Positions 24,418 to 60,800 of a stretch of DNA of 64,000 nt are shown here, piece after piece. Made by a program: the position numbers and the translations under genes. The stretch covers positions 6,820,001-6,884,000 of the forward strand of contig NW_026909196.1 in NCBI RefSeq assembly GCF_033115175.1, read 5' to 3'. The first letter of the stretch is position 1. Each line of letters begins with the position of its first letter. This DNA is from Lepus europaeus (Eukaryota > Chordata > Mammalia > Lagomorpha > Leporidae). A model generated the notes under the pieces. That model did not search any database, was not told the origin of the DNA, and worked only from the letters and a program-made list of their open reading frames with translations.

Positions 24418-24569
24418 GACAAAAAAGGAATCATCTACATATCTATCCTTAAACTATAATCTTGATTAACTTATTAATTAGAATTAGGTTTTGGAATTAG
24501 GCAGTTTTCTTATCTTCTTTATTGATTTTAAAATGACCTTTTTAATCCTCACAAAACAAGTATTGAAGC

Positions 24570-24830: not shown

Positions 24831-24842
24831 AAAATTCTTACT

Positions 24843-26312
<1,470 letters not shown>

Positions 26313-27997: not shown

Positions 27998-29053
27998 ATG
28001 CCAAACAACAAACATAGAAGCTGAGGTAACAAGAGCAAGGAAGACACTATGACGCCCTCAAGTGAACAAGGCACGCCAATGCAAGATTATGAAGATGAAG
28101 AGATAGAGGAAATGCAAGAAGCAGATCACAAAAAATTGATAAGAACATTAAGAAGTTCTCAAAAACAAATTCTTGAACTACAGAAATCCTTAATGGACAA
28201 GATAGAAAATCTCTCGTGAAAATGAAATATTAAGGAGGAATCAAAATGAAATGAAACAACTAATGGAACAGGAAACTGAGATAGTGACAAAAAACCACAA
28301 TGAAATGAAGAACTCAATAGATCAAATGGCATACACATTAGAGAGCCTTAAAAACAGAATGGGTGAGGCAGAAAAGAGAATATCAGAATTAGAAGACAGA
28401 GAACAGGAAAGGAAACAGTCAAATCAAAGAAAAGAAGAAGAAATCAGAAATCTAAAAAATACTGTCAGGAATCTACAGGATACTATTAAAAAACCCAACA
28501 TTTGGGTTCTAGGAGTTCGTGAAGGCATGGAGAGGGAGAAAGGATTAGAAGGCCTTTTTAGTGAGATACTAGCAGAAAATTTCCCAGGTTTGGAGAAGGA
28601 CAGAGACATCCTAGTACAGGAAGCTCATAGAACCCCTAATAAACATGATCAAAAGAGATCCTCACCACGGCACGTCGTAATCAAACTCACCACAGTGAAA
28701 CACAAAGAAAAGATCCTAAAATGTGCAAGAGAGAAACGCCAGATTACTCTCAGAGGATCTCCAATTAGACTCACAGCTGACTTCTCATCAGAAACCCTAC
28801 AAGCCAGGAGAGAATGGCGAGATATAGCCCAGGTACTAAGAGAGAAAAACTGCCAGCCCAGAATATTATATCCTGCAAAGCTCTCATTTGTGAATGAAGG
28901 TGAAATAAAGACCTTTCACAGCAAACAGAAACTGAAATAATTTGTCACCACTCGTCCAGCCCTGCAAAAGATGCTTAAAGATGTGTTACATACAGAAACA
29001 CAGAAACACGGTAACCAATATGAAAGAAGGAAAAGGAAGGAAACCTCACAGCA
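27998..29053 (+). pseudogene. L1 ORF1 (RNA-binding chaperone), broken
   Basis: ATG at 27998 (MPNNKHRS), a TGA at codon 9 where the related copy at 56989 has a sense codon, then sequence including YEDEEIEEMQEAD and LRSSQKQILELQKSL. A 2-bp loss in a CT run near 28213 (CTCTCG here, CTCTCTCG in the related copy) shifts the frame. From 28251 to 28940 the frame is open: coiled coil rich in E, K and R, the RNA-recognition-like part with PNIWVLGVREGME, then the C-terminal domain through SETLQARREWRDIAQVLREK, ending at a TAA where a GAA codon is expected. ORF1 protein normally trimerises and coats L1 RNA. Confidence 0.9.
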
Positions 29054-29101
29054 AAAGATCACAGGAATCTCAAACCATATGTTAGAAAATATGTTTGGCA
29101 A

Positions 29102-32100
29102 ATGGCAGGGCAAATTTACTCCTTCTCAATAGTCACATTGAATGTTAATGTCTTGAACTGTCCAGTTAAAAGACACTGATTGGCTGATTGGGTTAAGGAA
29201 CAAAACCCATCTTTTTGCTGCTTACAAGAAACTCATCTTTCCAACAATGATCCATACAGGCTGAAAGTGAAAGGCTGGAAAAAGATATACCATTCCAACA
29301 GAAATGAAAAAAGAGCGGGCGTAGCCATCTTAATATCGGACAACATAAACTTTACCACAAAAACTGTCAGGAGAGAAAAAGAAGGGCACTATATAATGAT
29401 TAAGGGATCCATTCAACAGGAAGATATAACAATTATCAATGTATAGGCACCTAATCACAGGGCACCAGCTTATTTAAAAGACTTGTTAATGGACTTAAAG
29501 GGAGACTTAGACCCCAATACAATAGTACTGGGGGACATCAATACTCCACTCTCAGAGATAGACAGATCAACAGGACAGAAGATCAAAAAGGAGACAACAG
29601 ATTTAAATGACACTATAGCCCAAATGGATCTAACAGATATCTGCAGAACTTTTCATTCTACACATAAAGAATTTACATTCTTCTCAGCAGTATATGGAAC
29701 CTTCTCTAGGATTGACCACATACTAGGCCATAAAGCAAGTCTCAGCAAATTCAAAAGAATTAGAATCATACCATGCAGCTTCTCAGACCACAAAGGAATG
29801 AAATTGGAAATTGGCAACTCAGGAATCCCTAGAGCACGTGCAAACACATGGAGATTGAACAACATGCTCCTGAATGAACAATGGGTCATAGAAGAAATTA
29901 AAAGAGAAATCAAAAATTTTCTGGAAGTAAATCAGGATAACAGCACAACATACCAAAACCTATGGGATACAACAAAAGCAGTGTTAAGAGGAAAGTTTAT
30001 ATCAATAGGTGCCTACATGAAGTAATTGGAAAGGCACCAAATAGATGAGCTTTCAAGTCATCTCAAGGATCTAGAAAATCTGCAGCAAACCAAACCCAAA
30101 CCCAGTAGGAGAAGAGAAATAATTAAAATCAGAGAAGAAATTAACAGGATTGAATCCAAAAAAACATTACAAAAAATCAGCCAAACGAGGAGCTGATTTT
30201 TTGAAAAAATAAACAAAATTGACACCCCATTGGCTCAACTAACTAAAAAAAGAAAAGACCCAAATCAATAGGATCAGAGATGAAAATGGAAATATAACTA
30301 CAGACACCACAGAAATAAAAAGAATCATCAGAAATTACTACAAGGACTTGTATGCCAGCAAACAGGGAAATCTATCAGAAATGGACAGATTCTTGGACAC
30401 ATACAACCTACCTAAATTGAGCCAGGAAGACATAGAAAACCTAAACAGACCCATAACTGACACAGAAATTGAAACAGTAATAAAGGCCCTCCCAACAAAG
30501 AAAAGCCCAGGACCAGATGGATTCACTGCTGAGTTCTACCAGACATTTAGAGAAGAACTAACTCCAATTCTTCTCAAACTATTCAGAGCAATCGAAAAAG
30601 AGGGAATCCTCCCAAATTCTTTCTATGAAGCCAGCATCACCTTAATTCCTAAGCCGGAAAAAGATGCAGCATTCAAAGAGAATTACAGACCAATATCCCT
30701 GATGAACATAGATGCAAAAATACTCAATAAAATTCTGGCCAATAGAATGCAACAACACATCAGAAAGATCATCCACCCAGACCAAGTGGGATTTATCCCT
30801 GGTATGCAAGGATGGTTCAACGTCCGCAAAACAATCAACGTAATACACTACATTAACAGGCTGCAGAAGAAAAACCATATGATTCTCTCAATAGATGCAG
30901 AGAAAGCATTTGATAAAATACAACACCCTTTCATGATGAAAACTCTAAGCAAACTGGGTATGGAAGGAACATTCCTCAATACAATCAAAGCAATATATGA
31001 AAAACCCACGGCCAACATCCTATTGAATGGGGAAAAGTTGGAAGCATTTCCACTGAAATCTGGTACCAGACAGGGATGCCCTCTCTCACCACTGCTATTC
31101 AATATAGTTCTGGAAGTTTTGGCCAGAGCTATTAGGCAAGAAAAAGAAATTAAAGGGATACAAATCGGGAAGGACGAACTCAAACTATCCCTCTTTGCAG
31201 ATGATATGATTCTTTACTTAGGGGACCCAAAGAACTCTACTAAGAGACTGCTGGAACTCATTGAAGAGTTTGGCAAAGTAGCAGGATATAAAATCAATGC
31301 ACGAAAATCAACAGCCTTTGTATACACAGGCAATGCCACGGCTGAGGAAGAACTTCTAAAATGAATCCCATTCACAATAGCTACAAAAACAATCAAATAC
31401 CTTGGAATAAACTTAACCAAAGACGTTAAAGATATCTACAATGAAAACTACAAAACCTTACAGAAAGAAATAGAAGAGGATACCAAAAAATGGAGAAATC
31501 TTCCATGCTCATGGATTGGAAGAATCAATATCATCAAAATGTCTATTCTCCCAAAAGCAATTTATACATTCAATGCAATACCAATCAAGATCCCAAAGAC
31601 CTTCTTCTCAGATCTGGAAAAAATGATGCTGAAATTCATATGGAGACACAGAAGACCTCGAATAGCCAAAGCAATCCTGTACAACAAAAACAAAGCTGGA
31701 GGCATCACAATACCTGATTTCAGAACATACTACAGGGCAGTTGTTATCAAAACAGCATGGTACTGGTACAGAAACAGGTGGATAGACCAATGGAACAGAA
31801 TAGAAACACCAGAAATCAATCCAAACATCTACAGCCAACTTATAGTTTACCAAAGATCCAAATCTAATCCCTGGAATAAGGACAGTCTATTCAATAAATG
31901 GTGCTGGGAAAATTGGATATCCACGTGCAGAAGCTTGAAGCAAGACCCATACCTATCACGTTACACAAAAATTCACTCAACGTGGATTAAAGACTAAAAT
32001 CTACGACCCGAAACCATCAAATTATTAGAGAGCATTGGAGAAACCCTGCAAGATATATGCACGGGCAAAGACTTCCTGGAAAATACTCCAACAGCACAGT

Positions 32101-32921
32101 CAGTCAAAACCAAAATTAACATTTGGGATTGCATCAAATTGAGAAGTTTCTGTACTTCAAAAGAAACAGTCAGGAAAGTGAAGAGGCAACCAACAGAATG
32201 GGGGAAAATATTCGCAAACTATACTACAGATAAAGGATTGATAACCAGAATCTACAAAGAAATCAAGAAAATCCACAACAACAAAACAAACAACCCACTG
32301 AAGAGATGGGCCAAGGACCTCAAGAGACATTTTTCGAAAGAGGAAATCCAAATGGCCAACAGACACATGAAAAAATGTTCAAGATCACTAGCAATCAGAG
32401 AAATGCAAATCAAAACCACAATGAGGTTCCATCTCACCCCGGTGAGAATGGCTCACATTCAGAAATCTACCAACAACAGATGCTGGAGAGGATGTGGGGA
32501 AAAAGGGACACTAACCCACTGTTGGTGGGAATGCAAACTGGTTAAGCCACTATGGAAGTCAGTCTGGAGATTCCTCAGAAACCTGCACATAACCCTACCA
32601 TACAACCCAGCCATCCCACTCCTTGGAATTTACCCAAAGGAAATTAATTTGGCTAATAAAAAAGCCATCTGCACATTAATGTTTATTGCAGCTCAATTCA
32701 CAATAGCTAAGACCTGGAACCAACCCAAATGCCCATCAACAGTAGACTGGATAAAGAAATTATGGGACATGTACTCCATAGAATACTATACAGCAGTAAG
32801 AAACAACGAAACCCAGTCATTTGCAACAAGATGGAGCAATCTGGAAAACATCATGCTGAGTGAATTAAGCCAGTCCCAAAGAGACAAATATCATTTGTTT
32901 TCCCTGATCGGTGACAACTGA
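29102..32921 (+). pseudogene. L1 ORF2 (endonuclease and reverse transcriptase), broken
   Basis: About 1,273 codons, the normal L1 ORF2 length. The endonuclease part retains family signature residues: QETHL (29225-29239), [23 protein letters not shown] and [10 protein letters not shown]. The reverse-transcriptase part has [56 protein letters not shown] and the catalytic FADD box at 31194-31205. The cysteine-rich C terminus ([16 protein letters not shown]) is present. Disabling changes: TGA 29177-29179, TAG 29444-29446, TAA 30023-30025, TGA near 30192, a frameshift in an A-rich run near 30241-30262, TGA 31362-31364 and TAA 31995-31997. ORF2 would nick target DNA and copy L1 RNA into it. Confidence 0.93.
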
Positions 32922-35050
32922 GCGCCAACGGGGAAACCTGTTGAAGTGAAATGGACACTATAAGCAACAATGAACTGATCAGCTCCTGTCCTGACTTTAG
33001 ATGTACAATGTAATACTTTATCCTTTTTAGTATTTGTTGTTTTTGTTGTTGTTCTAGTACTATTGGTTGAACTCAGTAATTAACACACAATTATTCTTAG
33101 GTGTTTAAATTTTAACTGAAAAGTGATCCCTGTTAAATCTAAGAGTGGAAAAAGAGAGGGAGGAGATGAACAATTTGGAACATGCTCAATCGGACTGGCC
33201 GCAAATGGTGGAGTTAGAAATGTGCCAGGGGATTCCAACACAATCCCATCAAGATGGCATGTACCAATGCCATTGCACTAGTCCAAGTGATCAATTTCAG
33301 CTCACAATTGATAGCTCTGATAGGTCTAAGAGTCAAAGAGATCACACAAACAAGACAAGTATCTGCTAATACTAACTGATAGAATCAAAAAGGGAGAGCA
33401 AGATCCAGCATGGGAAGCGGGATACACAGCAGACTCATAGAATGGCAGATGTCCTAAACAACACTCTGGCCTCAGAATCAGCCCTCAAGGCATTCGGATC
33501 TGGCGGAAGAGCCCATGAGAGTATAGCAGGCATGGAAAGCCAAGATATCATGGAAAAAAAAGACCTAAATGAATGATCTCTGTGAGTGAGATCCCAGTGG
33601 AAAGAACGGGGCCATCAAAGAAGGAGGTACCCTTCTCTGAAGGGAGGAGAGAACTTCCACTTTGACATTGACCCTATCGGAATAAGATCAAAGTCAGCGA
33701 ACTCTAAAGGCTTCCATAGCCCTGGAATTGGAAATGAAAAAAAAATCCCGGTGTTAAAATGGAATTGGCATAGAAAATTAATTGATTTGAAAAAAAATTA
33801 TGTGGGATCTCTGTCTTTAATGTGCTGTACATTGCTATTTAATGCTATAATTAGTAATACAATGGTAGATTTTTCACTTTATGTTGCTATATGGGCAAAA
33901 TCTTGAAATCTTTATCTAATATATACTAAACTGATCTTCTGTATATAAAGAGAATTGAAAATGAATCTTTACATGAATGGAAGGGAAAAGGGAGCGGGAA
34001 AGGGGAGGGTTGTGGGCGGGAGGGAAGTTATGGGAGGGGGGAAGCCATTGTCACCCATAAGCTATACTTTGGAAATTTATGTTCATTAAATAAAAGTTTA
34101 ATAACAAAAAAAAAGAAACCGGAAATATACGGCTTTGTTTTGGCTAACTCAATCCCAGATATTGATACAGCCTCTGTGTTTGTGTTTTCTGGATATTATC
34201 AATGGAGTTTATTAGTTTGAATGTTTTTTATGGGGGAATATTTTATTTTGAGCTTAGATTCACTAATGGTTCCACATAGAGACACCAGCTCTACATATTG
34301 TATTTTCTAGCGAGTAAGCTAGAGAAACTGTGGCAAACAAACATGATATTTCTGTTTGTATAGATGACATTTTATGCACTTGGCTAACGAAAATACTTTG
34401 TTTTTCTCCAAAACCATTTTTACTCTGATTTTCTCGGTATATTGCATACGAATTCCACACCACTTTGTCCAGATATGACTGGATGTAACGGGAAATATCC
34501 GGTGGTGTTTTGGCTAACTCAATCCAAAATATTGTGAGAGCCTCTGTGTTTGTGTTTTCCAGATATTAGTGATGGACTTTATTGTTTTGGATGTTTTCAT
34601 CAGGGAAGATTTAATTTTGTACCGTTGAAACACTAATTGGTTCATCATGGGGACACCAGCTCTACACATTTGTATTTTCTAGGGAGAAATCTAGAGGAAC
34701 TGCGGAATAAAACAAGATATTACTGTTTGTATAGATGACATTTTATGCAGTTGCCTAATGAAAAGACTTTGCTTTTCTCCAAAACCATTTTTACTCTGAT
34801 TTTCTCGGTCTATTGCATACGAATTCCACACCACTTTGTCCGGATATGACTGGATTAAACCAGAAATATCCAGTTGTGTTTCGGCTAACTCAATCCGAAA
34901 TATTATGAAAGCCTCTGTGTTTGTGTTTTCAGGATATTATCGATGGACTTTATTATTTTGAATATTTTTATCAGGGAACATTTAATTTTGTACCATTGAA
35001 ACACTAAGTGGTTCATCATGGGGACACCAGCTCTACACATTCGTATTTTC

Positions 35051-38000
35051 TAGGAAGAAAGCTAGAGGCACTGCGGCAAACAAACATGATATTTCTGTTT
35101 GTATAGATGACATTTTATGCACTTGCCTAATGAAAAGACTTTGCTTTTCTCCAAAATCATTTTTACTTTGATGTTCTGGGTCCATTGCATACGAATTCCA
35201 CACCAGTTTGTCCAGATATGACTGGATGAAACCATAAATATCCGGTTGTGTTTGGCTAACTCAATCCCAGACATTGCTACAGCCTCTGTGTTTGTGTATT
35301 CCTGATATTATCCTACGGACTTTATTGTTTTGAAAGTTTTTTATCGGGGAACATTTAATTTTGTGCTTGGAATCACTAAGTGGTTCCACATGAAGACAGC
35401 AGCTATACACATTCGTATAGATGACATTTTATGCACTTGCCTAATGAAAAGACTTTGCTTTTCTCCAAAACCATTTTCACTCTGACTTTCTCAGTCCATT
35501 GCATACATTCCACAACAGTTTTTCCAGATATGACTGGATGAAACCATAAGTATCCGGTTGTGTTTGGCTAACTCAATCCCAGACATTGCTACAGCCTCTG
35601 TGTTTGTGTATTCCTGATATTATCCTACGGACTTTATTGTTTTGAAAGTTTTTTATCGGGGAACATTTAATTTTGTGCTTGGAATCACTAAGTGGTTCCA
35701 CATGAAGACAGCAGCTATACACATTCGTATAGATGACATTTTATGCACTTGCGTAACGAAAAGACTTTGCTTTTCTCCAAAACCATTTTCACTCTGATTT
35801 TCTCAGTCCATTGCATACGAATTCCACACCAGTTTGTCCGGATATGACTGGATGAAACTGCAAATATCCGGTTTTGTTTTGGCTAACTCAATCCCAGCTA
35901 TTGCTACAGCCTCTGTGTTTGTGTTTTTATTTGGATATTATCAACGGACTTTATTGCTTTGAATGTTTTTTATCGGGGAACATTTTATTTTGAGTTTGGA
36001 TACAGTAATTGGTTCCACATGGAGACACCAGCTCTACACATTCGTATTTTCTAGGGAGAAAGCTAGAGGAACTGCGGCAAACAAACATGATATTTCTGTT
36101 TGTATAGATAACATTTTATGCACTTTCCTAACTAAAAGACTTTGCTTTTCGGCAAAACCATTTTTACTGTGATTTTCTCGGTGCATTGCATACGAATTCC
36201 ACACCAGTTTGTCTGGATATGACTGGATGTAAACAGAAATATCCGGTTGTGTTTTGGCTAACTCAATTCAAAATATTGTGAAAGCCGCTGTGTTTGTGTT
36301 TTCTGGATATTATCGATGGAATTTATTGTTTTGAATATTTTTGTCAGGGAAAATTTCATTTTGTACCGTTGAAGCACTAATTGGTTCATCATGGGTACAT
36401 CAGCTCCAAACATTTGTATTATCTAGGGAGAAATCTAGAGGAACTACAGCAAACAAACATGATATTTCTGTTTGTATAGATGATATTTTATGCACTTACC
36501 TAATGAAAAGAATTTGCTTTTCTCCGAAACCATTTTTACTGTGATTTTCTCGGTCCATTGCATACGAATTCCACACCACTTTGTCCGGATATGAGTGGAT
36601 GAAACTGAAAAACTATCCGGATTTGTTTTCGCTAACTTAATCCCAGATATTGCTACAGCCTCTGTGTTTGTGTTTTCTGGATATTATCAACGGACTTTAT
36701 TGGTTTGAATGTTTTTTATCGGGGAACATTTTATTTTGAGCTGGGAAACACTAATTGGTTCCACATGGAGACACCAGCTCTACAAATTCATATTTGCTAG
36801 GGAGAATGCTAGAGAAACTGTGACAAACAAACATGATATTTCTGTTTGTATAGAGGACATTTTATGCACTTGCCTAATGAAAAGACTTTGCTTTTCTCCA
36901 AAATCACTTTTACTGTTATTCTCTTAGTCCATTGCGTATGAATTCCACAACACTTTTTCGTTATATGACTGGATGAAACCAGAAATATCTGGTTGTGATT
37001 TGGCTAACTCAATCCCAGATATTGCTACAGCCTCTGTGTTTGTGTATTCTGGATATTATCAACAGACATTATTGGTTTGAAAGTTTTTTATCGGGGAACA
37101 TTTTATTTTGAGCTTGGATACAGTAATTGGTTCTACATGGAGACACCAGCTCTACACATTCGTATTTTCTAGGGAGAATGCTAGAGGACCTGCGACAAAC
37201 AAACATGATATTTCTGTTTGTTTGGATGACATTTTATGCACTTGCCTAACGAAATGACTTTGCTTTTCTCCAAAACCATTTTTAATGTGATTTTCTCGGT
37301 CAATTGCTTATGAATTCAACACCACTTTGTCCGGATATGACTGGATGAAACCAGATATATCCGGTTGTGATTTGGCTAACTCAATCCCAGATATTGCTAC
37401 TGCCTATGAGTTTGTGTATTCCTGATATTACCCAGGGACTTTTTGTTTTGAAATTTTTTTGTCGGGGAACATTTAATTTTGTGCTTGGAATCAATAATCG
37501 GTTCCACATGGAGACACCAACTCTACACATTCGTATTTTCTAGGGAGAAAGCTAGGGGAACTGCGGCAAACAAACATGATATTTCTGTTTGTATAGATGA
37601 CATTTTATGCACTTGCCTAACGAAAAGACTTTGCTTTTCTCCAAAACAATTTTTACTGTGATTTTCTCATTCCATTGCATATGAATTCCACACCAGTTTG
37701 TCCAGATATGACTGGATGAAACCAGAATTATCCGGATGTGTTTTGGCTAACTCAATCCCAGATATTGCTACAGCTTCTGTGTTTGTGTATTCCTGACATA
37801 ATCCACGGACTTTATTGGTTTGAAAGTTTTTTGTCGGGGAAAATTTAATTTTGTGCTTGGAATCACTAATTGGTTCTACATGGAGACACCAGCTCTACAC
37901 ATTCGTATTTTCTAAGGAGAAACCTAGAGGAACTGTGGCAAACAAACATGATATTTCTGTTTGTATAGAGGACATTTTATGCACTTCCCTAACGAAAAGA

Positions 38001-39030: not shown

Positions 39031-42000
39031 TAGGAAGAAAGCTAGAGGCACTGCGGCAAACAAACATGATATTTCTGTCTGTATAGATGACATTTTATGC
39101 ACTTGCCTAATGAAAAGACTTTGCTTTTCTCCAAAATCATTTTTACTTTGATGTTCTGGGTCCATTGCATACGAATTCCACACCAGTTTGTCCAGATATG
39201 ACTGGATGAAACCGTAAATATCCGGTTGTGTTTGGCTAACTCAATCCCAGATATTGCTACAGTCTCTGTGTTTGTGTATTCCTGATATTATCCTACGGAC
39301 TTTATTGTTTTGAAAGTTTTTTATCGGGGAACATTTAATTTTGTGCTTGGAATCACTAAGTGGTTCCACATGAAGACAGCAGCTATACACATTCGTATAG
39401 ATGACATTTTATGCACTTGCGTAACGAAAAGACTTTGCTTTTCTCCAAAACCATTTTCACTCTGATTTTCTCAGTCCATTGCGTACATTCCACACCAGTT
39501 TTTCCAGATATGACTGGATGAAACCATAAGTATCCGGTTGTGTTTGGCTAACTCAATCCCAGATATTGCTACAGCCTCTGTGTTTGTGTATTCCTGATAT
39601 TATCCTACGGACTTTATTGTTTTGAAAGTTTTTTATCGGGGAACATTTAATTTTGTGCTTGGAATCACTAAGTGGTTCCACATGAAGACAGCAGCTATAC
39701 ACATTCGTATAGATGACATTTTATGCACTTGCGTAACGAAAAGACTTTGCTTTTCTCCAAAACCATTTTCACTCTGATTTTCTCAGTCCATTGCATACGA
39801 ATTCCACACCAGTTTGTCTGGATATGACTGGATGAAACTGCAAATATCCGGTTTTGTTTTGGCTAACTCAATCCCAGCTATTGCTACAGCCTCTGTGTTT
39901 GTGTTTTTATTTGGATATTATCAACGGACTTTATTGCTTTGAATGTTTTTTATCGGGGAACATTTTATTTTGAGTTTGGATACACTAATTGGTTCCACAT
40001 GGAGACACCAGCTCTACACATTCGTATTTTCTAGGGAGAAAGCTAGAGGAACTATGGCAAACAAACATGATATTTCTGTTTGTATAGATAACATTTTATG
40101 CACTTTCCTAACTAAAAGACTTTGCTTTTCAGCAAAACCATTTTTACTGTGATTTTCTCGGTGCATTGCATACGAATTCCACACCAGTTTGTCTTGATAT
40201 GACTGGATGTAAACAGAAATATCCGGTTGTGTTTTGGCTAACTCAATTCAAAATATTGTGAAAGCCGCTGTGTTTGTGTTTTCTGGATATTATCGATGGA
40301 ATTTATTGTTTTGAATATTTTTGTCAGGGAAAATTTCATTTTGTACCGTTGAAGCACTAATTGGTTCATCATGGGTACATCAGCTCCAAACATTTGTATT
40401 ATCTAGGGAGAAATCTAGAGGAACTACAGCAAACAAACATGATATTTCTGTTTGTATAGATGATATTTTATGCACTTACCTAATGAAAAGAATTCGCTTT
40501 TCTCCGAAACCATTTTTACTGTGATTTTCTCGGTCCATTGCATACGAATTCCACACCACTTTGTCCGGATATGAGTGGATGAAACTGAAAAACTATCCGG
40601 ATTTGTTTTCGCTAACTTAATCCCAGATATTGCTACAGCCTCTGTGTTTGTGTTTTCTGGATATTATCAACGGACTTTATTGGTTTGAATGTTTTTTATC
40701 GGGGAACATTTTATTTTGAGCTGGGAAACACTAATTGGTTCCACATGGAGACACCAGCTCTACAAATTCATATTTGCTAGGGAGAATGCTAGAGAAACTG
40801 TGACAAACAAACATGATATTTCTGTTTGTATAGAGGACATTTTATGCACTTGCCTAATGAAAAGACTTTGCTTTTCTCCAAAATCACTTTTACTGTTATT
40901 CTCTTAGTCCATTGCGTATGAATTCCACAACACTTTTTCGTTATATGACTGGATGAAACCAGAAATATCCGGTTGTGATTTGGCTAACTCAATCCCAGAT
41001 ATTGCTACAGCCTCTGTGTTTGTGTATTCTGGATATTATCAACAGACATTATTGGTTTGAAAGTTTTTTATCGGGGAACATTTTATTTTGAGCTTGGATA
41101 CAGTAATTGGTTCTACATGGAGACACCAGCTCTACACATTCGTATTTTCTAGGGAGAATGCTAGAGGACCTGCGACAAACAAACATGATATTTCTGTTTG
41201 TTTGGATGACATTTTATGCACTTGCCTAACGAAATGACTTTGCTTTTCTCCAAAACCATTTTTAATGTGATTTTCTCGGTCAATTGCTTATGAATTCAAC
41301 ACCACTTTGTCCGGATATGACTGGATGAAACCAGATATATCCGGTTGTGATTTGGCTAACTCAATCCCAGATATTGCTACTGCCTATGAGTTTGTGTATT
41401 CCTGATATTACCCAGGGACTTTTTGTTTTGAAATTTTTTTGTCGGGGAACATTTAATTTTGTGCTTGGAATCAATAATCGGTTCCACATGGAGACACCAA
41501 CTCTACACATTCGTATTTTCTAGGGAGAAAGCTAGGGGAACTGCGGCAAACAAACATGATATTTCTGTTTGTATAGATGACATTTTATGCACTTGCCTAA
41601 CGAAAAGACTTTGCTTTTCTCCAAAACAATTTTTACTGTGATTTTCTCGTTCCATTGCATATGAATTCCACACCAGTTTGTCCAGATATGACTGGATGAA
41701 ACCAGAATTATCCGGATGTGTTTTGGCTAACTCAATCCCAGATATTGCTACAGCTTCTGTGTTTGTGTATTCCTGACATAATCCACGGACTTTATTGGTT
41801 TGAAAGTTTTTTGTCGGGGAACATTTAATTTTGTGCTTGGAATCACTAATTGGTTCTACATGGAGACACCAGCTCTACACATTCGTATTTTCTAAGGAGA
41901 AACCTAGAGGAACTGTGGCAAACAAACATGATATTTCTGTTTGTATAGAGGACATTTTATGCACTTCCCTAACGAAAAGACTTTGCTTTTTTCCAAAACC

Positions 42001-45187: not shown

Positions 45188-48100
45188 TAGGAAGAAAGCT
45201 AGAGGCACTGCGGCAAACAAACATGATATTTCTGTTTGTATAGATGACATTTTATGCACTTGCCTAATGAAAAGACTTTGCTTTTCTCCAAAATCATTTT
45301 TACTGTGATGTTCTCGTTCCATTGCATACGAATTCCACACCAGTTTGTCCAGATATGACTGGATGAAACCGTAAATATCCGGTTGTGTTTGGCTAACTCA
45401 ATCCCAGATATTGCTACAGCCTCTGTGTTTGTGTATTCCTGATATTATCCTACGGACTTTATTGTTTTGAAAGTTTTTTATCGGGGAACATTTAATTTTG
45501 TGCTTGGAATCACTAAGTGGTTCCACATGAAGACAGCAGCTATACACATTCGTATAGATGACATTTTATGCACTTGCGTAACGAAAAGACTTTGCTTTTC
45601 TCCAAAACCATTTTCACTCTGATTTTCTCAGTCCATTGCATACATTCCACACCAGTTTTTCCAGATATGACTGGATGAAACCATAAGTATCCGGTTGTGT
45701 TTGGCTAACTCAATCCCAGATATTGCTACAGCCTCTGTGTTTGTGTATTGCTGATATTATCCTACGGACTTTATTGTTTTGAAAGTTTTTTATCGGGGAA
45801 CATTTAATTTTGTGCTTGGAATCACTAAGTGGTTCCACATGAAGACAGCAGCTATACACATTCGTATAGATGACATTTTATGCACTTGCGTAACGAAAAG
45901 ACTTTGCTTTTCTCCAAAACCATTTTCACTCTGATTTTCTCAGTCCATTGCATACGAATTCCACACCAGTTTGTCCGGATATGACTGGATGAAACTGCAA
46001 ATATCCGGTTTTGTTTTGGCTAACTCAATCCCAGCTATTGCTACAGCTTCTGTGTTTGTGTTTTTATTTGGATATTACAACGGACTTTATTGCTTTGAAT
46101 GTTTTTTATCGGGGAACATTTTATTTTGAGTTTGGATACACTAATTGGTTCCACATGGAGACACCAGCTCTACACATTCGTATTTTCTAGGGAGAAAGCT
46201 AGAGGAACTGCGGCAAACAAACATGGTATTTCTGTTTGTATAGATAACATTTTATGCACTTTCCTAACTAAAAGACTTTGCTTTTCGGCAAAACCATTTT
46301 TACTGTGATTTTCTCGGTGCATTGCATACGAATTCCACACCAGTTTGTCTGGATATGACTGGATGTAAACAGAAATATCCGGTTGTGTTTTGGCTAACTC
46401 AATTCAAAATATTGTGAAAGCCGCTGTGTTTGTGTTTTCTGGATATTATCGATGGAATTTATTGTTTTGAATATTTTTGTCAGGGAAAAAATTTCATTTT
46501 GTACCGTTGAAGCACTAATTGGTTCATCATGGGTACATCAGCTCCAAACATTTGTATTATCTAGGGAGAAATCTAGAGGAACTACAGCAAACAAACATGA
46601 TATTTCTGTTTGTATAGATGATATTTTATGCACTTACCTAATGAAAAGAATTCGCTTTTCTCTGAAACCATTTTTACTGTGATTTTCTCGGTCCATTGCA
46701 TACGAATTCCACACCACTTTGTCCGGATATGAGTGGATGAAACTGAAAAACTATCCGGATTTGTTTTCGCTAACTTAATCCCAGATATTGCTACAGCCTC
46801 TGTGTTTGTGTTTTCTGGATATTATCAACGGACTTTATTGGTTTGAATGTTTTTTATCGGGGAACATTTTATTTTGAGCTGGGAAACACTAATTGGTTCC
46901 ACATGGAGACACCAGCTCTACAAATTCATATTTGCTAGGGAGAATGCTAGAGAAACTGTGACAAACAAACATGATATTTCTGTTTGTATAGAGGACATTT
47001 TATGCACTTGCCTAATGAAAAGACTTTGCTATTCTCCAAAATCACTTTTACTGTTATTCTCTTAGTCCATTGCGTATGAATTCCACAACACTTTTTCGTT
47101 ATATGACTGGATGAAACCAGAAATATCTGGTTGTGATTTGGCTAACTCAATCCCAGATATTGCTACAGCCTCTGTGTTTGTGTATTCTGGATATTATCAA
47201 CAGACATTATTGGTTTGAAAGTTTTTTATCGGGGAACATTTTATTTTGAGCTTGGGTACAGTAATTGGTTCTACATGGAGACACCAGCTCTACACATTCG
47301 TATTTTCTAGGGAGAATGCTAGAGGACCTGCGACAAACAAACATGATATTTCTGTTTGTTTGGATGACATTTTATGCACTTGCCTAACGAAATGACTTGG
47401 CTTTTCTCCAAAACCATTTTTAATGTGATTTTCTCGGTCCATTGCTTATGAATTCAACACCACTTTGTCCGGATATGACTGGATGAAACCAGATATATCC
47501 GGTTGTGATTTGGCTAACTCAATCCCAGATATTGCTACTGCCTATGAGTTTGTGTATTCCTGATATTACCCAGGGACTTTTTGTTTTGAAATTTTTTTGT
47601 CGGGGAACATTTAATTTTGTGCTTGGAATCAATAATCGGTTCCACATGGAGACACCAACTCTACACATTCGTATTTTCTAGGGAGAAAGCTAGGGGAACT
47701 GCGGCAAACAAACATGATATTTCTGTTTGTATAGATGACATTTTATGCACTTGCCTAACGAAAAGACTTTGCTTTTCTCCAAAACAATTTTTACTGTGAT
47801 TTTCTCGTTCCATTGCATATGAATTCCACACCAGTTTGTCCAGATATGACTGGATGAAACCAGAATTATCCGGATGTGTTTTGGCTAACTCAATCCCAGA
47901 TATTGCTACAGCTTCTGTGCTTGTGTATTCCTGACATAATCCACGGACTTTATTGGTTTGAAAGTTTTTTGTCGGGGAACATTTAATTTTGTGCTTGGAA
48001 TCACTAATTGGTTCTACATGGAGACACCAGCTCTACACATTCGTATTTTCTAAGGAGAAACCTAGAGGAACTGTGGCAAACAAACATGATATTTCTGTTT

Positions 48101-50572: not shown

Positions 50573-52773
50573 AACATTTCATTTTCTACCGTAGAAACAC
50601 TAATTGGTTCATCATGGGGACACCAGCTCTACATATTCGTATTTTCTAGGGAATAAGCTAGAGGAACTGCAGCAAACAAACATGATATTTCTGTTTCTAT
50701 AGATGACATTTTATGCACTTGCCTAACGAAAAGACTTGGCTTTTCTCCAAAACCATTTTTACTGTGATTTTCTCCATCCATTGCATACGAATTCCACACT
50801 ACTTTCTCCGGATGTGATTGGATGAAACCAGAAATGTCCGGTTTTGTTTTGGCTAACTCAATCCCAGATATTGGTACAGCCTCCGTGTTTGTGTATTCCT
50901 GATATTATCCTCGGACTTTATTGTTTTGAATGTTTGTTATCAGGAAACATTTAATTTTGGGCTTGGATACAGTAATTGGCTCCACATGGAGACACCAGCT
51001 CTACATATTCGTATTTTCTAGGGACAAAGCTAGAGGGACTGCAACAAACAAACATGATATTTCTGTTAGTATAGATGACATTTTATGCAGTTTTCTAACA
51101 AAAAGACGTTGCTTTTCTCCAAAACGACTTTTACTGTGAGTTTCTTGGTCCAGTGCATACGAATTCCAGAGCAGTTTGTACGGATATGAGTGGATGAAAG
51201 CAGAAATATCTGGTTGTGTTTTGGCTAACTCAATCCCAGATATTGCTACAGCCTCTGTGTTTCTGTTTTCTGGATATTATCAATGGATTTTATGGTTTTG
51301 AATGTTTGTTATCTGGGAACATTTAATTTTGGGCTTAGATACAGTAATTGGTTCCACATGGAGACACCAGCTCTACACATTCGTATTTTCTAGGGAGAAA
51401 GCTAGAGGAACTGCGGCAAACAAACATGATATTTCTGTTTGTATCGATGACATTTTATGCACTTGCCTAACGAAAAGACTTTGCTTTTCTCCAAAACCAT
51501 TTTTACTGTGAGTTTCTCGGTCCATTGCATATGAATTCCACACCAGTTTGTCCAGATATGACTGGATGAAACCAGAAATATCCGGTTGTGTTTTTGCTAA
51601 CTCACTCCGAAATATTGTGAAAGAATCTGTGTTTGTGTTTTCTGGATATTATCGATGGACTTTTGTTTTGAATGTTTTGCTCGGGGAACATTTTATTTTG
51701 AGCTTGGATAAAGTAATTGGTTCCACATGGATACACCAGCTCCACATATTCGTATTTTCTAGGTAGAAAATAAGTAGAACTGTGACAAACAAACATGATA
51801 TTTCTGTTTGTATAGATGACATTTTATGCACTTGCCTAACGAAAAGACTTTGCTTTTCTCCAATACCATTTGTACTGTGATTTTCTCGGTCCATTGCATA
51901 CGAATTCCACTCACTTTGTCCGTATATGACTGGAAGTAACCATGAATATCCGGTTGTGTTTTGGCTAACTCAATCCCAGATATTGCTGCAGCCTCTGTGT
52001 TTGTGTATTCCTCATATTATCTACGGACTTCATTATTTTGAATGTTCGATATCGGGGAACATTTAATTTTGGGCTTGGAATCAGTAATTGGTTCCACATG
52101 GATACACCAGCTCTACATATTCGTATTTTGTAGGGAGAAAGCTAGAGGAACTGCGGCAAACATGATATTTCTGTTTGTATAGATGACATTTTATGCACTT
52201 GCCTAACAAAAATACGTTGCTTTTCTCCAAAACCACTTTTACTGTGATTTTCTTGGTCCAGTGCATACGAATTCCAGAGCAGTTTTTACGGATATGACTG
52301 GATGAAACCAGAAATATCCGGTTGTGTTTTGGCTAACTCAATCCCAGATATTACTACAGCATCTGTGTATGTGTTTTCCGGATATTATCAATGGACTTTA
52401 TGGTTTTGAATGTTTGTTATCGGGGAACATTTAATTTTGGGCTTGGATACAGTAATTGGTTCCATATGGAGACACCAGCTCTATACATTCGTATTTTCTA
52501 GGGAGAAAGCTAGAGGAACTGCGACACACAAACATGATATTTCTGTTTCTATAGATGACATTATATGCACTTGCCTAACAGAAACACTTTGCTTTTCTCC
52601 AAAACTATTTTTACTCTGATTTTCTCATCCCATTGCATACGAATTCCACACCACTTTGTCCGGATTTGACTGGATGTAACCAGAAATATCCGGTTGTGTT
52701 TTGGCTAACTCAATCAGAAATATTGTGATAACTTCTGGGTTTGTGTTTTCTGGATATTATCGATGGACTTTAT

Positions 52774-52789
52774 TGTTTTGAATGTTTTT
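52774..52789. repeat. Target-site duplication, left, of the ORF2-less LINE
   Basis: TGTTTTGAATGTTTTT, the last satellite bases before the LINE poly(T). Repeated with one mismatch at 57895-57910 (TGTTTTGAATGATTTT). Confidence 0.8.
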
Positions 52790-54544
52790 TTTTAACTTTT
52801 ATTTAATGAATATAAATTTCCAGTGTATAGTTTATGGATTACAATGCCTTCCCCTTCCCATAACTTCCCTCCCACCCACAACCCTCCCCTCTCCCGCTCC
52901 CTCTCCCCTTCCATTCACATCAAGATACTTTTGCAATTCTCTTTATATACAGAAGATCAATTTAGTATAAAGATTTCAATAGTTTGCACCCACAGAAACA
53001 CAAAGTGAAACATACTGTTTGAGAACTAGTTATAGCATTAAATCAAGATGTACAGCACATTATGGATAGAGATCCCACATGAGGAGCAAGTGCACAGTGA
53101 CACCTGTTGTTAACCCAACAAATTGACACTCTAGTTTATGGCTCCAGTAACCACCCTAGGGTGTCGTCATGAGTTGCCAAGGCTATGGAAGCCTTCCAAG
53201 TTTGCTGACTCTGATCATATTTAGACAAGGTCATAAAAGACAGGGTGAGCATAGTAACCAATGATCCTAACAGTGGCATTTACCAGGTTTGAACAATTAT
53301 ACAGCATTAAGTGGGGAAGAGGACCATCAGTACACACAGGTTGGGAGTAGAGCCATTGGTAGTAGAGTAGAGGTTATGATTACAAAGGAATGAGGCCCAA
53401 GTATGCTAGACAGGGTCTAGAACAAAGGACAGAGTCATTATTAGAGGAGCTAAGAAAGGTGCTGTCTAAGCTACAATTAAGTTTTCTGATTGAGAGGCAA
53501 GTAGAACCTGATAGAAGGGGCTTGATAATAATCTGGTGGGCTTTAGGCTTTGTAAGTTAAGAGGCCCAGACCTATCTATCTCTTCACTTGGGGTATATCC
53601 TAAGGGAGGTGTGAACCTCCTAGGGGAAGGCACTCTGTTGACTTTCATTACTTGGCTGGCCTGGGAGGAGAGCTGGCCAGGTAAAGGCAGGTGGCATCTC
53701 TAACAGGAAATTTACAGTTCTGCCTGCAATGTTGCTGACCCTACTTGGCTGTCCCCTCAGCTGCAGTGGTCACGTTGGAAGTTGGGCTGAGTGAAGGGCT
53801 TTTCAGCTTAGAGCCAATAAGATCTGTGGCTCTGACCTGGGCATCCTTCGACTCCAGGGCAGGTCCATTTCCAGTGATCCAACTCTTGGCAGAGCTGCCA
53901 GGGCTCTTCACAAGCTGATTTCTGCTGAAGCCCAGGCTTACCACCTTGAAATCCACTGCAGTGGACTGGCCTGTTGGGTCTCCTTGAGGGCAGATCACTG
54001 TACAGATCAGCCATTTATATGCCTGCCACCCATTGCTTCTGATGCCTAGCTTTCTTTTCCTCTTGGTTTGTGTTAAAGCAGACCAGAGGATGCAAGTCAA
54101 GGGAGTGCCCGTATCCCATCTCTAATCTTCGGTGGCCTGAACTAAAGTCTATAGTCACAGGCATGTGCTGTAGTAGTTTTTCTAAGGTAGACAATGCCCA
54201 TGAGGAAAATTATATTCTCACTTTAAAACTTTCTTTCCCTTTGGTCTGAAAGGGAGGTTTTTTTTCTACTTACTGTATACCTCAGTGATGGCGAAGTAAA
54301 TCTAGCTATGAGATTATTATTTAAATTCTTATTTTGGCTATGCTATTACAGAAAAATGTAAGCCATCTCTTTTATAAGGTCTAAAGATTAAATTGTGCAT
54401 CCTACAGATTCCTTCATAATAGAATTAGTTTCCTACCTTGAGAATAGAGAAATGAAAGAACAAGTTGGGCTTAGAATAGAGAAATGAGGGAGCAAGTCCT
54501 AGATCACTTGCTGACATTAGCAATATCACATGAATACTTAGCAG

Positions 54545-55892
54545 TTTCAACCATTAGATAACAACTTAAGAAAACATTTACCATAAAGTCCAATGCATTC
54601 TATAAATTTTAAGAATCATGTATTTGAAAACACCTCTTAAATATCTAACATGGTGTAGTTTGTTTAACCAGTAAACTTAAGCACACTCATCTAAAATGTT
54701 TTTAGTTTCTTTCTACCAACAAGTTTAAAACATATGATACACAGATTCAGGTCACAGAAATTCAAATGTATCTTTGATTGATTTTAGCAGCTTAAATTTA
54801 TGGACAATCTTATCTATAAGTCATTTAAAATAAAACTCAATAAAATTTCCCCATGTGGACATACAATATGTACACACATATAACATAGCATAGTAGTCCA
54901 ATATAGCAATTTTAATAATAGCTTTTAAAATCTTTAACTCTTTTTGTAGATTGCCAATTGATTTGAATTGCTTTTTGTTTTTAGTAACTTCAGTTAACCA
55001 TACTTTCTCTCAGTTGGTACTGTCAATAAATTATTGGCTTCATCTGTTTACAGAGCCATCCCAAAGTACTGAATACAATAGAAGTGGCTGGAAAAAGTCC
55101 ATAGGAACCTATAGGAGGACAGCTAAACACAGAACCAACAAGGCTTTAGTTTTATGAGCAGCAAATCATATATAACTGTGGATGACAAAAAACTTTAAGT
55201 CGCCATGTTTAAAATTATAAACTCATCAACCAACAAGAGGCACTTGCTTACTTCACAGTATTTTTGAAAGCACCTGTAGGATTTTACAAGTATTTAACCC
55301 TTTAAGCCTCTGGGGCTTTCTCATTAAGATAACTATCATGTCTAGTAACACAAGATCATTAGACTTTTTAATTCTCAATCATTTGTATTAATAGCATTTT
55401 CCATTATAGAAACTTAAAATTTGGTACCATGTCACATCTTGACAGTACTTCTAATATAATCCAAATAGCCTGATTAGTTGGTGTCTCTATAAGATGAGAG
55501 ACATAGGTCCTTCGATTTTTTCAGTTGGGCCCAAACTGGAAAAACCAAAGTCCAAGATTTACTGGAAATTTTAGAGTCCAGATTGTTTGGAACTTTCATT
55601 TTTTGAATGCCTGTCAAGAATGCCAAGAAGGCTCAAAATCCAAAATATCTGGTTGAAATAAGATTCCTTAAAATCATGACATAACATAGACCAAATTTGA
55701 TCATTGTTACAAGGTGATTATTCAAATCTTTGAAAAGAAGCACATATTTAAATAACCCATAGCTCTTAATAAAAATTCTGCTGTTTTTGAACAATTAGAA
55801 TTGAACAGACATCAAGAGAACATAATAGATTACTATAACACATTGCTGTAACAGAGCATCAGAGTTTAATTCTATGTCAAAGAGAAATTGAG
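54545..55892. other. Non-coding interior of the half-L1 candidate, seen only in this copy
   Basis: About 1.35 kb between the ORF1 end and the part shared with the copies at 6944 and 10086. AT-rich, with no open frame of interest and no trace of endonuclease or reverse-transcriptase motifs on either strand. No target-site duplication or poly(A) marks either edge, so it appears to belong to the element and not to a separate insertion. Confidence 0.6.
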
Positions 55893-55927
55893 CTTCCTGT
55901 GATCTTTTGCTGTGAGGTTTCCTTCCT

Positions 55928-56989
55928 TTACCTTCTTTCATATTGATGACCATGTTTCTGTGTTTCTGTGTGTAACACATCTTTAAGCATCTTTTGCAGG
56001 GCAGGACGAGTGGCGACAAATTCTTTCAGTTTCTGTTTGCTATGAAAAGTCTTAATTTCACCTTCATTCACAAATGAGAGCTTTGCAGGATATAATATTC
56101 TGGGCTGACAGTTTTTCTCTCTTAGTACCTGGGCTATGTCTCACCATTCCCTTCTAGCTTGTAGGGTTTCTGATGAGAAGTCTGCTGTGAGTCTAATTGG
56201 AGATCCTCTAAGAGTTATCTGACGTTTCTCTCTTGCACCTTTTAGAATCTTTTCTTTATGTTTCACTGTGGTGAGTTTGATTACAACATGTCGTGGTGAG
56301 GATCTCTTTTGGTCATGTTTATTAGGGATTCTATAAGCTTCCTGTACTAAGATGCCTCTGTCCTTCTCCAAACCTGGGAAATTTTCTGCTAGTATCTCAC
56401 TGAAAATGCCTTCTAATCCTTTCTCCCTCTCCATGCCTTCAGGAACTCCTAGAACCCAGATGTTAGGTTTTTTAATAGTATCCTGTAGATTCCCAACAAT
56501 ATTTTTTAGATTTCTAATTTCCTCTTCTTTTCTTTCGTTTGCCTGTTTCCTTTCCTGTTCTCTGTCTTCTAAGTCTGATATTCTCTCTTCTGCTTCACCC
56601 ATTCTGTTTTTAAGGCTTTCTAATGTGTTTGTCATTTGATCTATTGAATTCTTCATTTCATTATGATTTCTCATCACTATCAGAGTTTCTTGTTCTACTA
56701 GTTGTTTCATTTCATTTTGATTCCTCCTTAATATTTCATTTTCACGAGAGAGATTTTCTATCTTGTCCATTAAGGATTTCTGTAGTTCAAGAATTTGTTT
56801 TTGAGAACTTCTTAATGTTCTTATCAATTTTTTGAGATCCGCTTCTTGCATTTCTTCTATCTCATCATCTTCATAATCTTGAATTGGGGTGTCTTTTTCA
56901 TTTGGGAGCGTCATAGTGTCTTGCTTGTTCTTGTTACCTTGGTTTTTGCGTTTGTTGTTTGGCATGTTGGAGATATTTGGTTTCTTCAC
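55928..56989 (-). pseudogene. ORF1 of the half-L1 candidate, one internal stop
   Basis: Open from ATG at 56989 (MKKPNISNMPNNKRKNQGNK; the MPNNK start used by the other L1 lies 8 codons in) for 282 codons to a TGA at 56141, where the second L1 copy has CGA after ARREW. That is a C-to-T change at a CpG, the commonest mutation. Beyond it the same frame continues without another stop to a TAA at 55928-55930, total about 353 codons. The order is acidic N terminus (DYEDDEIEEMQEAD), long coiled coil, central RNA-binding part (PNIWVLGVPEGMEREKG) and C-terminal domain. One stop and no frameshift make it much better preserved than the ORF1 at 27998. Confidence 0.88.
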
Positions 56990-57894
56990 TGTGGTGTTTT
57001 TTCTTGTTACACTATGGCTCTATATTAAGTGGACTGTCTGCTTTCAGTGGAGCCTTAGAGGCTTGAAATGAGTGTGGCCTGAGAGCTGTGTTTGGTTCCT
57101 CAGGGTTGAGGGTGTGTCAAAGAGGACACTCCCAGGTTAGGCGTGGTAAATCTCTCTTTCTTTCTTTCTTTTTTTTTTTGCTTCAAAAGGGAAGTAATTC
57201 CACACAGCTGAACGTAATTGGAGGTAGTTAGCAGGTGAATGATATACCCACAGGAGCCAGAGATCAGAAGCTCTTTCCCAAGAACCACACAGGGAATCTC
57301 TGCTGCCCTCAGTGTGGGCTCAACTCTCCTGCAGTATCCCACTGGATTGCCAAGCCAGATGCCAATCTCCTGTTATTTCACCCCTCCCCCCAGAGTCAGG
57401 CTTCTCTGCTAGGCTCAGGGCTGGCGCAGACCCGAGGTCGCCCTGCTTATGACGTATGTCCAAAATGGGGACTGCTCTTTGTCTTGTTAGCCTTTGAGAG
57501 GTGAGCGGAGAGAGAGAAACTCGTGTCCATATCGGTCACTTTTTTTTTTTCCTCTCTCTCTTCTAGTTAGCCTGGTGAACTTTTCCCCACGGAGTTTCAA
57601 GCCTCATTCCCTCTAGTCTCCTCTTTCTGCTTGCCCGCTGGTGTCTCGGGCTATTAAGGATCGGCTCACCTCGCGTTCCAGCGCTGGTGCGTTGATTCTG
57701 CCGCTGGTGTTCCGAACCTGGGCTCCCACGCTCTCCACGCAGGTCCACTGTGAATCACTAGTTCTGGAAGAGTTTCCTCTGCTGTTTCTTCCCCTACTCT
57801 TCCTTGACCCTGAAGTATCTCCACTGTTATTAACTTGTGTGTTTCCGAACTATCAATGTGCTCACTTCCTATTCCGCCATCTTGCCGCTCTCTC

Positions 57895-60800
57895 TGTTTT
57901 GAATGATTTTATCAGGGAACATTTCATTTTGTACCGTAGAAACACTAATTGGTTCATCATGGGGACACCAGCTCTACACATTCGTATTTTTCTAGGGAGA
58001 AAGCTAGAGGAACTGCGGCAAACAAACATGATATTTCTCTTTGTATCGATGACATTTTATGCACTTGCCTAATGAAAAGACTTTGCTTTTCTGCAAAACC
58101 ATATTTACTGTGATTTTCTCGGTCCATTGCATACGAATTCCACACCAGTTTGTCCGGATATGACTGCATGAAAACAGAAATATCCAGTTGCGTTTTAGCT
58201 AACTCAATCCGAAATATTGTGAACGCCTCTTTGTTTGTGTTTTCTGGATATTATCAATGTACTTTATTGTTTTGAATGTTTTTTATCAGGGAACATTTAA
58301 TTTTGTACCATTGAAACACTAATTGGTTCATCATGAGGACACCAGCTCTACACATTCGTATTTTCTAGGGAGAAAGCTAGAGGAACTGCGACAAACAAAC
58401 ATGATATTTCTGTTTGTATAGATGACATTTTATGCACTTGCCTAGCGATAAGACTTTGCTTTTCTCCAAAATAACTTTTACTGTGATTTTCTCAGTCCAG
58501 TTATATGAATTCCAGAGCAGTTTGTCCAGATATGACTGGATGAAAACAGAAATATCCAGTTGTGTTTTGGTTAACTCAATCTGAAATATTGTGAAAGCCT
58601 CTCTTTTTGTGCACTTGCTTAACGAAAACACTTTGCCTTCCTCCAAAACCATTTTTACTCTGATTTTCTCAGCCCGTTGCATACAAATTCCACTCCACTT
58701 TGTCCGGATATGATTGGATGAAACCAGTAATATCCGGTTGTGTTTTGGCTAACTCAATCCGAAATATTGTGAAAGCCTCTGTGTTTGTGTTTTCTGGATA
58801 TTATTGTTGGACTTTATTGTTTTGAATGTTTTTATCAGGGAACATTTAATTTTGTACTGTTGAAGAACTAATTGGTTCATCATGGGGACACCAGCTCCAC
58901 ACATTCGTATTTTCTAGGGAGAAATCTAGAGGAACTGCGGCGAACAAACATATTTCTGTTTGTATAGATGACATTTTATGCACTTGCCTAACGAAAATAC
59001 TTTGCTTTTCTCCAAAACCATTTTTACTGTGATTTTCTCTGTCCATTGCATACGAATTCCACAACACTTTGTCCGAATATTACTGGATGAAACCGCAAAT
59101 ATCCGGTTTTACTTTGGCTAACTCAATCCCAGATATTGCTACAGCCTCTGTGTTTGTGTATTCCTGACATTATCCACGGACTTTAATGTTTTGAATGTTT
59201 TTATCAGGGTATATTTAATTTTGTGCTTGCAAATACTAATTGTGTCCACTTGGAGACACCAGCTCTACACATTCGTATTTTCTAGGGAGAAAGCTAGAGG
59301 AACTGCGGCAAACAAACATGATATTTCTGTTTGTATCGATGACATTTTACATACTTGCGTAACGAAAATACTTTGCTTTTCTCCAAAACCATTTTTACTG
59401 TGATTTTCTCTGTCCATTGCATACGAATTCCACACCAGTTTGTCCAGATATAAATGGATGAAACCGTAAATATCCGGTTGTGTTTTGGCTAACTCAATGC
59501 CAAAAATGTGAAAGATTCTGTGATTGTGTTTTTTGGATATTAACGATGGACTTTATTTTATTGAATGTTATTATCAGGGAACATTTAATTTTGTACCGTA
59601 GAAAGACTAATTGGTTCATCATGGGGACACCAGCTCTACACATTCATAATTTCTAGGGAGAATGCTAGAGGAACTGCGGCAAACAACCATCATATTTCTG
59701 TTTTTATAGATGACATTTTATGCACTTGCCTAACGAAAAGACTGCTTCTCTCCAAAACCATTTTTACTGTGTATTTCTCGGTACATTGCATACGAATTCC
59801 ACACGACTTTGTCCAGATATGACTGGATGAAACTGAAAAACTATCCGGATTTATTTTGGCTAAATCAATCCCTTCAATTGCTACATCCTCTGGGTTTGCG
59901 TTTTCTGGATATTATCAACGGACTTTATTGTTTTCAATGTTTTTTTATCGGGGAACATTTAATTTTCTGCTTGGAATCACTAATTGGTTCCACATGGAGA
60001 CACCAGCTTTTCATATTCATATTTTCTAGGGACAAAGCTAGAGGAACTGCGGCAAACAAACATGATATTTCCGTTTGTATCGATGACATTTTATGCACTT
60101 TCCTAATGAAAAGACTTTGCTTTTCTCCAAAAATATTTTTACTCTGATTTTCTCGGTCCATTGCATATGAATTACACACCAGTTTGTCAGGATATGACTG
60201 GATGAAAACAGAAATATGCTGTTGTGTTTTGGCTAACTCAATTCGAAATATTGTGAAGGCCTCTGTGTTTGTGTTTTCCGGATATTATCGATGGACTTTA
60301 TTGTTTGAAAGTTTATATCAGGGAACATTTAATTTTGTACCGAAGAAAGACTAATTGGTTCATCAAGGGGACACCAGCTCCACATATTCGTATTTTGTAG
60401 GGAGAAAGCTAGAGGAACTGCGGCAAACAAACATGATATTTCTGTTTGTATAGAAGACATTTTATGACTTGCCTAAGGAAAAGACTTTGCTTTTCTCCAA
60501 AACCATTTTTACTGTGATTTTCTCGGTCCATTGCATACGAATTGACAACACTTCGTCCGGATATGACTGGAAGAAACTCAAAAACTATCCGGATTTGTTT
60601 TGGCTATCTCAATCCCAGCAATTGCTACAGCATCTGTGTTTGCGTTTTCTGGATATTATCAATGCTCTTTATTGATTTGAACGTTTTTTATCGGGGAACA
60701 TTTTATTTTGAGCTTGGATACAGTAATTGGTTCCACATGGAGACACCAGCTCTACACATTCGTATTATCTAGGGAGAAAGCTAGAGGAACTGTGACAAAC

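Follow-up and report, generated by a model that had tools for sequence, protein, structure and literature searches.

A Half-L1 Element inside a Satellite Array

The window analysed here, i.e. the whole 64,000-nucleotide stretch of Lepus europaeus contig NW_026909196.1, carries on its minus strand, at positions 52790-57894, an element that has the 5′ untranslated region (UTR), the first open reading frame (ORF1) and the 3′ tail of an L1, with a 2.65-kb middle of non-ORF2 sequence between ORF1 and the tail. The family to which this element belongs is very probably a half-L1 (HAL1-type) family of non-LTR (long terminal repeat) retrotransposons in a leporid. Its anatomy (5′ UTR, ORF1, middle and L1 3′ tail) is fixed, with the join between ORF1 and the middle present in thousands of copies. 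Insertion, accompanied by target-site duplications and 5′ truncation, has dispersed these copies through a genome that also harbours L1s whose ORF2 frames are long and open. The window copy consists of the following parts:

52790-57894, minus strand: full-length element of the half-L1 (HAL1) type, inside a 372-bp satellite array
52774-52789, no strand: target-site duplication at the 3′ end of the element, in the 372-bp satellite, TGTTTTGAATGTTTTT; one mismatch to 57895-57910
52790-53235, minus strand: L1-type 3′ tail of ~445 bp with AATAAA and a short poly(A); matches L1 3′ tails and is common to 28 of 30 loci with the C-terminal part of ORF2
53236-55887, minus strand: 2.65-kb middle where an L1 has ORF2, without detectable homology to ORF2; its start is found 8,006 times in the genome
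55888-55927, minus strand: spacer after ORF1, common to ORF2-bearing L1s up to 55888
55928-56965, minus strand: ORF1 frame of 345 amino acids with the ATG at 56965 and one in-frame stop, at codon 275 (56141-56143)
56966-57894, minus strand: 5′ UTR, beginning GAGAGAGCGGCAAGATGGCGG; a 34-base pattern from near its start has 3,142 matches in the genome
57895-57910, no strand: target-site duplication at the 5′ end of the element, TGTTTTGAATGATTTT

The first-pass annotation had described a single L1-like insertion with ORF1 and without ORF2, and the parts lie where it had put them, bracketed by a duplication of 16 bp. The flanks read TGTTTTGAATG(T/A)TTTT and are repeated in phase with the satellite, as expected of a target-site duplication. 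The T/A mismatch is private to the window copy; in the three sister copies that were read, the same base is present on both sides. ORF1, which had been called near-intact, is interrupted by the one stop at codon 275, and its product matches the Pfam family Transposase_22. The join had been placed near 55893; it is real, and the L1 homology breaks at 55888. A known coding domain was ruled out for the longest sense frame of the middle (126 amino acids, 53744-54121) by the lack of a Pfam match, and a known RNA family was ruled out for 52700-58000, where an Rfam search gave no match at the gathering score.

The Join Recurs Thousands of Times in the Genome

We searched the genome from which the window comes (2.93 Gb in 649 contigs) with patterns of 34 bases, allowing up to three mismatches; reversed-pattern controls gave 0 matches. 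The join between ORF1 and the middle was found 7,962 times and the junction between the middle and the tail 17,238 times. The near equality of the joins and the 8,006 starts of the middle, which were not paired place by place, leaves little room for another class of elements with the same middle, and no class of copies is visible in which ORF2 separates this ORF1 from this middle. A chance pair of neighbouring truncated L1s, against which the first-pass annotation had argued, is ruled out by a join that recurs this often. The counts drop from the 3′ to the 5′ end (17,238, 7,962 and 3,142), the pattern expected of target-primed reverse transcription. The ORF1/ORF2 join of L1 was found 4,797 times, a comparison that favours the half-L1, since the L1 join lies farther from the 3′ end of its element than the half-L1 join does and the L1 pattern fits young L1s only.

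With a 301-base query across the join (629 candidates), all 40 scored matches, the window included, span the join at 98-100%. Records L009-L038 were fetched with this query, and L001-L008 with an ORF1 query that ends short of the join; all eight loci fetched in the latter way, of which L001 is the window, carry the join nevertheless. Bar single changes, it reads alike in all 37 records L002-L038, which represent 34 distinct places including the window (L010, L026 and L028 duplicate L002, L003 and L008 and were left out).

The middle itself has variants. The perfect matches listed for contig C1 include 23 join/tail pairs; 11 of these form a length class of 2,640-2,668 and 11 another of 1,820-2,199, with a single pair at 3,197, which hints at half-L1 subfamilies.

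ORF1 Is Open in Part of the Copies and Likely Constrained

An exact open ORF1 of 345 amino acids was found in 14 of the 33 distinct loci besides the window, that is, in 7 of 20 dispersed loci and in 7 of 13 satellite-contig loci, the latter not being independent. Among the remaining 19 loci, one frame is intact at 344 amino acids and several are truncated or rearranged. The protein encoded at L005 matches Transposase_22 and Tnp_22_dsRBD (Pfam) and aligns with the human L1 ORF1 protein (ORF1p) 2ykp over 226 residues (E 2e-64). Thus, the family has an L1-type ORF1 that is open in some copies, which is one mark of a HAL1.

The ORF1s of 28 half-L1s and of five sampled L1s separate at 100/100. Between the two groups, nonsynonymous divergence (dN) is about 0.03-0.04 and synonymous divergence (dS) about 0.22, part of this divergence being L1's own. 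Variants were counted in 15 dispersed copies, with incomplete ORF1s left out and L023 omitted both here and from the grouping above as a near-copy of L022. Those shared by at least two copies include fewer nonsynonymous changes than expected (23 of 43 against an expected share of 0.733, p 0.005), and singletons are near neutral (66 of 98 against the same share, p 0.21). Because the direct comparison of shared with singleton variants is not significant (Fisher p 0.13), constraint on ORF1 while the family spread is likely, not proven.

The same data bear on the view that ORF1 is a passenger, i.e. that L1 proteins mobilise the RNA in trans, as they do that of a processed pseudogene or a short interspersed element (SINE), and that its own ORF1p is irrelevant. 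We regard this as unlikely: the 19 loci without the exact frame, the near-neutral singletons and the Fisher result are in its favour, and they are opposed by the low dN relative to dS (partly L1's own divergence), by the depletion of nonsynonymous changes among shared variants and by the 14 frames that are intact.

As for the age of the family, 17 dispersed copies, a sample biased toward close relatives of the window copy, differ on average by 2.4% over the fetched 1.6 kb of the middle and have 0.65% private changes per copy. Mutation rates are a few per billion per year, at which many of the sampled insertions would date back at most a few million years. The split between half-L1 and L1 appears to be older, the divergence of the tails and the ORF1 dS of about 0.22 being in agreement.

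The Middle Stands in the Place of ORF2

The window contains an L1 with which the half-L1 could be compared directly:

27277-34101, plus strand: decayed full-length L1 with ORF1 and ORF2, comparison element in the window

The half-L1 matches this L1 in pieces from the 5′ UTR, which is only partly similar, through ORF1 to 55888 (L1 position 29073, before ORF2), and similarity resumes in the last ~445 bp; an extra 82-base match inside ORF1 (68%, E 0.002) was taken as chance. ORF2 remnants in the middle were ruled out by two kinds of comparison. A tblastn search of 52790-55900 with the five open ORF2 pieces of the window L1, the stretches between the pieces being unused, gave a best E of 0.32, so that the check for ORF2 homology proposed in the first-pass annotation returned nothing better than this value. 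DNA alignment of the middle with ORF2 did no better than shuffled sequence, with 87, 20 and 36 of 100 dinucleotide shuffles reaching its score under three scoring schemes. For the alignment of the middle with the 3′ UTR of the window L1, the score was reached by 10, 16 and 65 of 100 dinucleotide shuffles, so this 3′ UTR gives no signal. A stretch at 12531-13500 (reverse complement), upstream of an L1-type tail at 12078-12530, aligns to the middle above all 30 shuffles, and its score was reached by 2, 1 and 48 of 100 dinucleotide shuffles under the three schemes. This signal, seen in two of the three schemes, weakly suggests an ancient, distant kinship between part of the middle and some L1 3′ UTR.

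None of 30 loci fetched via the C-terminal part of ORF2 (the window L1 included) holds the middle. The tail is shared by 28 of them, in 10 cases as one unbroken alignment at 79.6-87.0% identity and in the others as shorter pieces; the remaining two, one of which has masked bases, do not match the half-L1. With the ORF2 core as query, 12 loci were obtained; the ORF1 homology stops at exactly 55888 in 10, and in these 10 comparable L1 loci the join sits in the inter-ORF spacer just before ORF2. The other two are L071, where a half-L1 3′ piece adjoins a truncated L1, and L079, which has no match. ORF2 is thus absent from the family copies, as in HAL1s, and the window half-L1 does not have the ORF2 with endonuclease and reverse transcriptase that makes an L1 autonomous. 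At the same time its ORF1, spacer and 3′ tail are homologous to those of L1s in the same genome, which is what derivation from an L1 of the same lineage entails. ORF2 frames of at least 1,300 amino acids were present in more than 40 of 110 scored ORF2 matches (90,609 candidates), which makes a helper L1 plausible.

One-off deletions are common in L1, and the outer parts of the element are L1-derived; an internal deletion, by which ORF2 would have disappeared from this copy or a small group within an L1 family whose other members have it between the same parts, is nonetheless highly improbable. The joins are nearly as many as the starts of the middle, the middle is absent from all 30 ORF2 C-terminal loci, and the join lies in the spacer of the comparable L1s. 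We therefore consider an internal deletion refuted for this genome at this sensitivity, a unique deletion being excluded by the join counts. In the first-pass annotation, a join unique in the genome, an interior derived from an unrelated one-off insertion, and copies in which ORF2 lies between these parts had been named as observations that would speak against a half-L1 family. With 7,962 joins and 8,006 middle starts the first two do not apply, and at the sensitivity stated the third was not observed either.

Several Unlinked Copies Carry Their Own Target-Site Duplications

Both ends were sought for 13 further copies. The eight unlinked copies with both ends read have eight different flanks. 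Duplications are clear in the copies on C9, on C3 at 148.4 Mb and on C12, each above all 56 mispaired controls, and the copy on C3 near 64.94 Mb (L004, L083) has a clear, unusually long one of 97 bp with three mismatches. Probable duplications of ~10 bp are present at both junctions of the copies on C1, where AAATCCAAAA stands at either side, and C5. As can be seen from the count gradient and from four clear and two probable duplications among eight copies, this is a multicopy family of one fixed structure spread by retrotransposition, as is typical of HAL1s. Many copies with the exact join and with duplications of their own are the support that the first-pass annotation had looked for in proposing a half-L1 family.

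The history of the window copy is different. The copies on C223 at 8.77 Mb, on C185 at 3.68 Mb and on C13 have both satellite flanks as in the window copy, and a copy on C185 at 3.72 Mb agrees with the window copy in its 3′ flank and is missing its 5′ part. The junction between satellite and 5′ end occurs at 40 places, 27 on C13, 6 on C185 and 7 on C223. The shared flanks and the 40 junction places indicate that the window copy is a single insertion multiplied with the satellite. The earlier claim of one insertion event therefore holds for the insertion, with the qualification that the window copy is itself one of 40 satellite-amplified copies of it. The satellite-borne copies (C13 at 92.4-102.6 Mb, C185 and C223) have one orientation per contig.

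That satellite or segmental duplication rather than retrotransposition produced most copies of the family is scarcely credible: it holds for the window copy and its sisters, all on C13, C185 and C223, and the near-identical L022 and L023 lie 13 kb apart on C43, but these 40 places compare with 3,142 matches to the 5′ end, the unlinked copies all differ in their flanks, and the gradient of copies from 3′ to 5′ fits reverse transcription.

Two more copies in the window, which the first-pass annotation had correctly noted as sharing the 3′ part, are the following:

10102-11857, minus strand: 5′-truncated family member, 94.8% to the 3′ part, with its own 17-bp duplication ATTAGAAACCATTTTTT
6941-8008, minus strand: family fragment without the 3′ tail, 95.4%, starting at the satellite edge

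The satellite border at 6941-8008 resembles a rearrangement breakpoint more than an insertion end. Elsewhere in the genome, at 53-160 of L003 (C8 at 78.3 Mb), a piece of the family middle (corresponding to 54168-54283) lies directly upstream of the 5′ end in the same orientation and without a duplication; this copy is chimeric or nested.

Weight of the Evidence and Proposed Mechanism

Several observations weigh against the half-L1 interpretation. The copies fetched were those most similar to the window copy and do not form a random sample, and L009-L038 were obtained with a query that crosses the join. For 14 of the 16 5′ ends listed below 54.9 Mb on contig C1, a perfect join or a start of the middle is also listed ~2 kb downstream, and for two none is, so some of the 5′-end matches may belong to other elements. 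One of the 13 copies whose ends were sought (on C2) gave no readable ends, two of the eight unlinked copies (on C6 and C8) show no duplication, and the probable duplications in the C1 and C5 copies are not above the mispaired controls. To these are added the Fisher comparison of ORF1 variants given above and the fact that, for the help of ORF2 protein (ORF2p) in trans, what was found is the presence of long ORF2 frames. The half-L1 interpretation remains, in our opinion, very probable.

By this interpretation, RNA made from the 5′ UTR would encode ORF1p, which may coat its own RNA in cis. ORF2p of autonomous L1s would then nick T-rich targets and reverse-transcribe the half-L1 RNA in trans, starting from the poly(A) tail. 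The window copy would have arisen by insertion into a 372-bp satellite monomer, to be multiplied later with the satellite.

A broader proposal, to which we give slightly less than even weight, is that an ORF1-only lineage has long existed beside L1 in leporids, with its ORF1 under purifying selection, and has acquired its 2.65-kb 3′ region from elsewhere. It would have come to exceed L1 in copies that reach the ORF1 boundary (7,962 versus 4,797), so that ORF1p would have to act in cis though ORF2p is borrowed.

In half-L1s the two L1 proteins are naturally uncoupled, the RNA keeping ORF1 and being without ORF2. A young and very abundant family with intact ORF1s, living beside L1s whose long ORF2 frames are open, offers a natural test of which protein has to act on its own RNA, and the coexistence of half-L1 and L1 a test of the way in which an L1 parasite competes with L1. 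The satellite-borne copies provide 40 marked copies of one insertion, by which the spread of the satellite between contigs can be traced.

Other Features of the Window

The 372-bp satellite contains blocks of shorter, 312-bp monomers at 35101-36047, 39081-40027 and 45238-46183, which points to a higher-order repeat. A run of C2H2 zinc-finger repeats at 25019-26258, in a non-satellite island, looks like a zinc-finger pseudogene, because the only frame of at least 120 amino acids within 24000-26500 has 195. Rsat I, a rabbit satellite with units of 375 bp (PMC6096579), was considered as the host satellite and was ruled out: with up to three mismatches allowed, neither of the published Rsat I primers had a match in the window (0 for each). 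A single albumin exon of the genome agrees with the rabbit albumin chains 4f5v and 3v09 at 73 of 75 residues; together with the missing Rsat I primer sites, this difference suggests that the leporid host may be other than Oryctolagus.

Comparison with Known Systems

The autonomous L1 of the same genome (27277-34101 and its relatives) has an ORF1 92-93% identical to that of the half-L1, the same spacer and the same 3′ tail. It differs in having ORF2, another 3′ UTR upstream of the tail and a largely different 5′ UTR. Spliced integrated L1 elements (SpIREs) are L1 copies without an internal part. They come from splicing of human L1 RNA (PMC5860796). In contrast to SpIREs, the half-L1 has a non-ORF2 middle, and the form itself multiplies.

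The defining HAL1 paper is said to be that of Bao and Jurka 2010. HAL1s are reported to have arisen in mammals on several independent occasions (PMC5753468). For guinea pig and marmoset, names of recent families (HAL1-1H_Cpo, HAL1-3D_Cpo, HAL1-1C_Cja and others) appear in a table passage of another source, which gives no rabbit or pika HAL1 among families less than 1% divergent (PMC3183009); by name and table they resemble the present family as recent half-L1s. No half-L1 of rabbit or hare is described in the titles and abstract openings that searches of open-licence papers listed, and a family of such abundance may well be in repeat libraries already under some name.

The HAL1 kind is thus already known. 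Mammalian HAL1s and the half-L1 described here are alike in being derived from L1, in carrying ORF1 only, and in being non-autonomous and multicopy, a likeness drawn from descriptions. The leporid family is a further HAL1 member, placed by description, which differs from the mammalian HAL1 families as described in its leporid host and in the 2.65-kb middle that stands in the place of ORF2.

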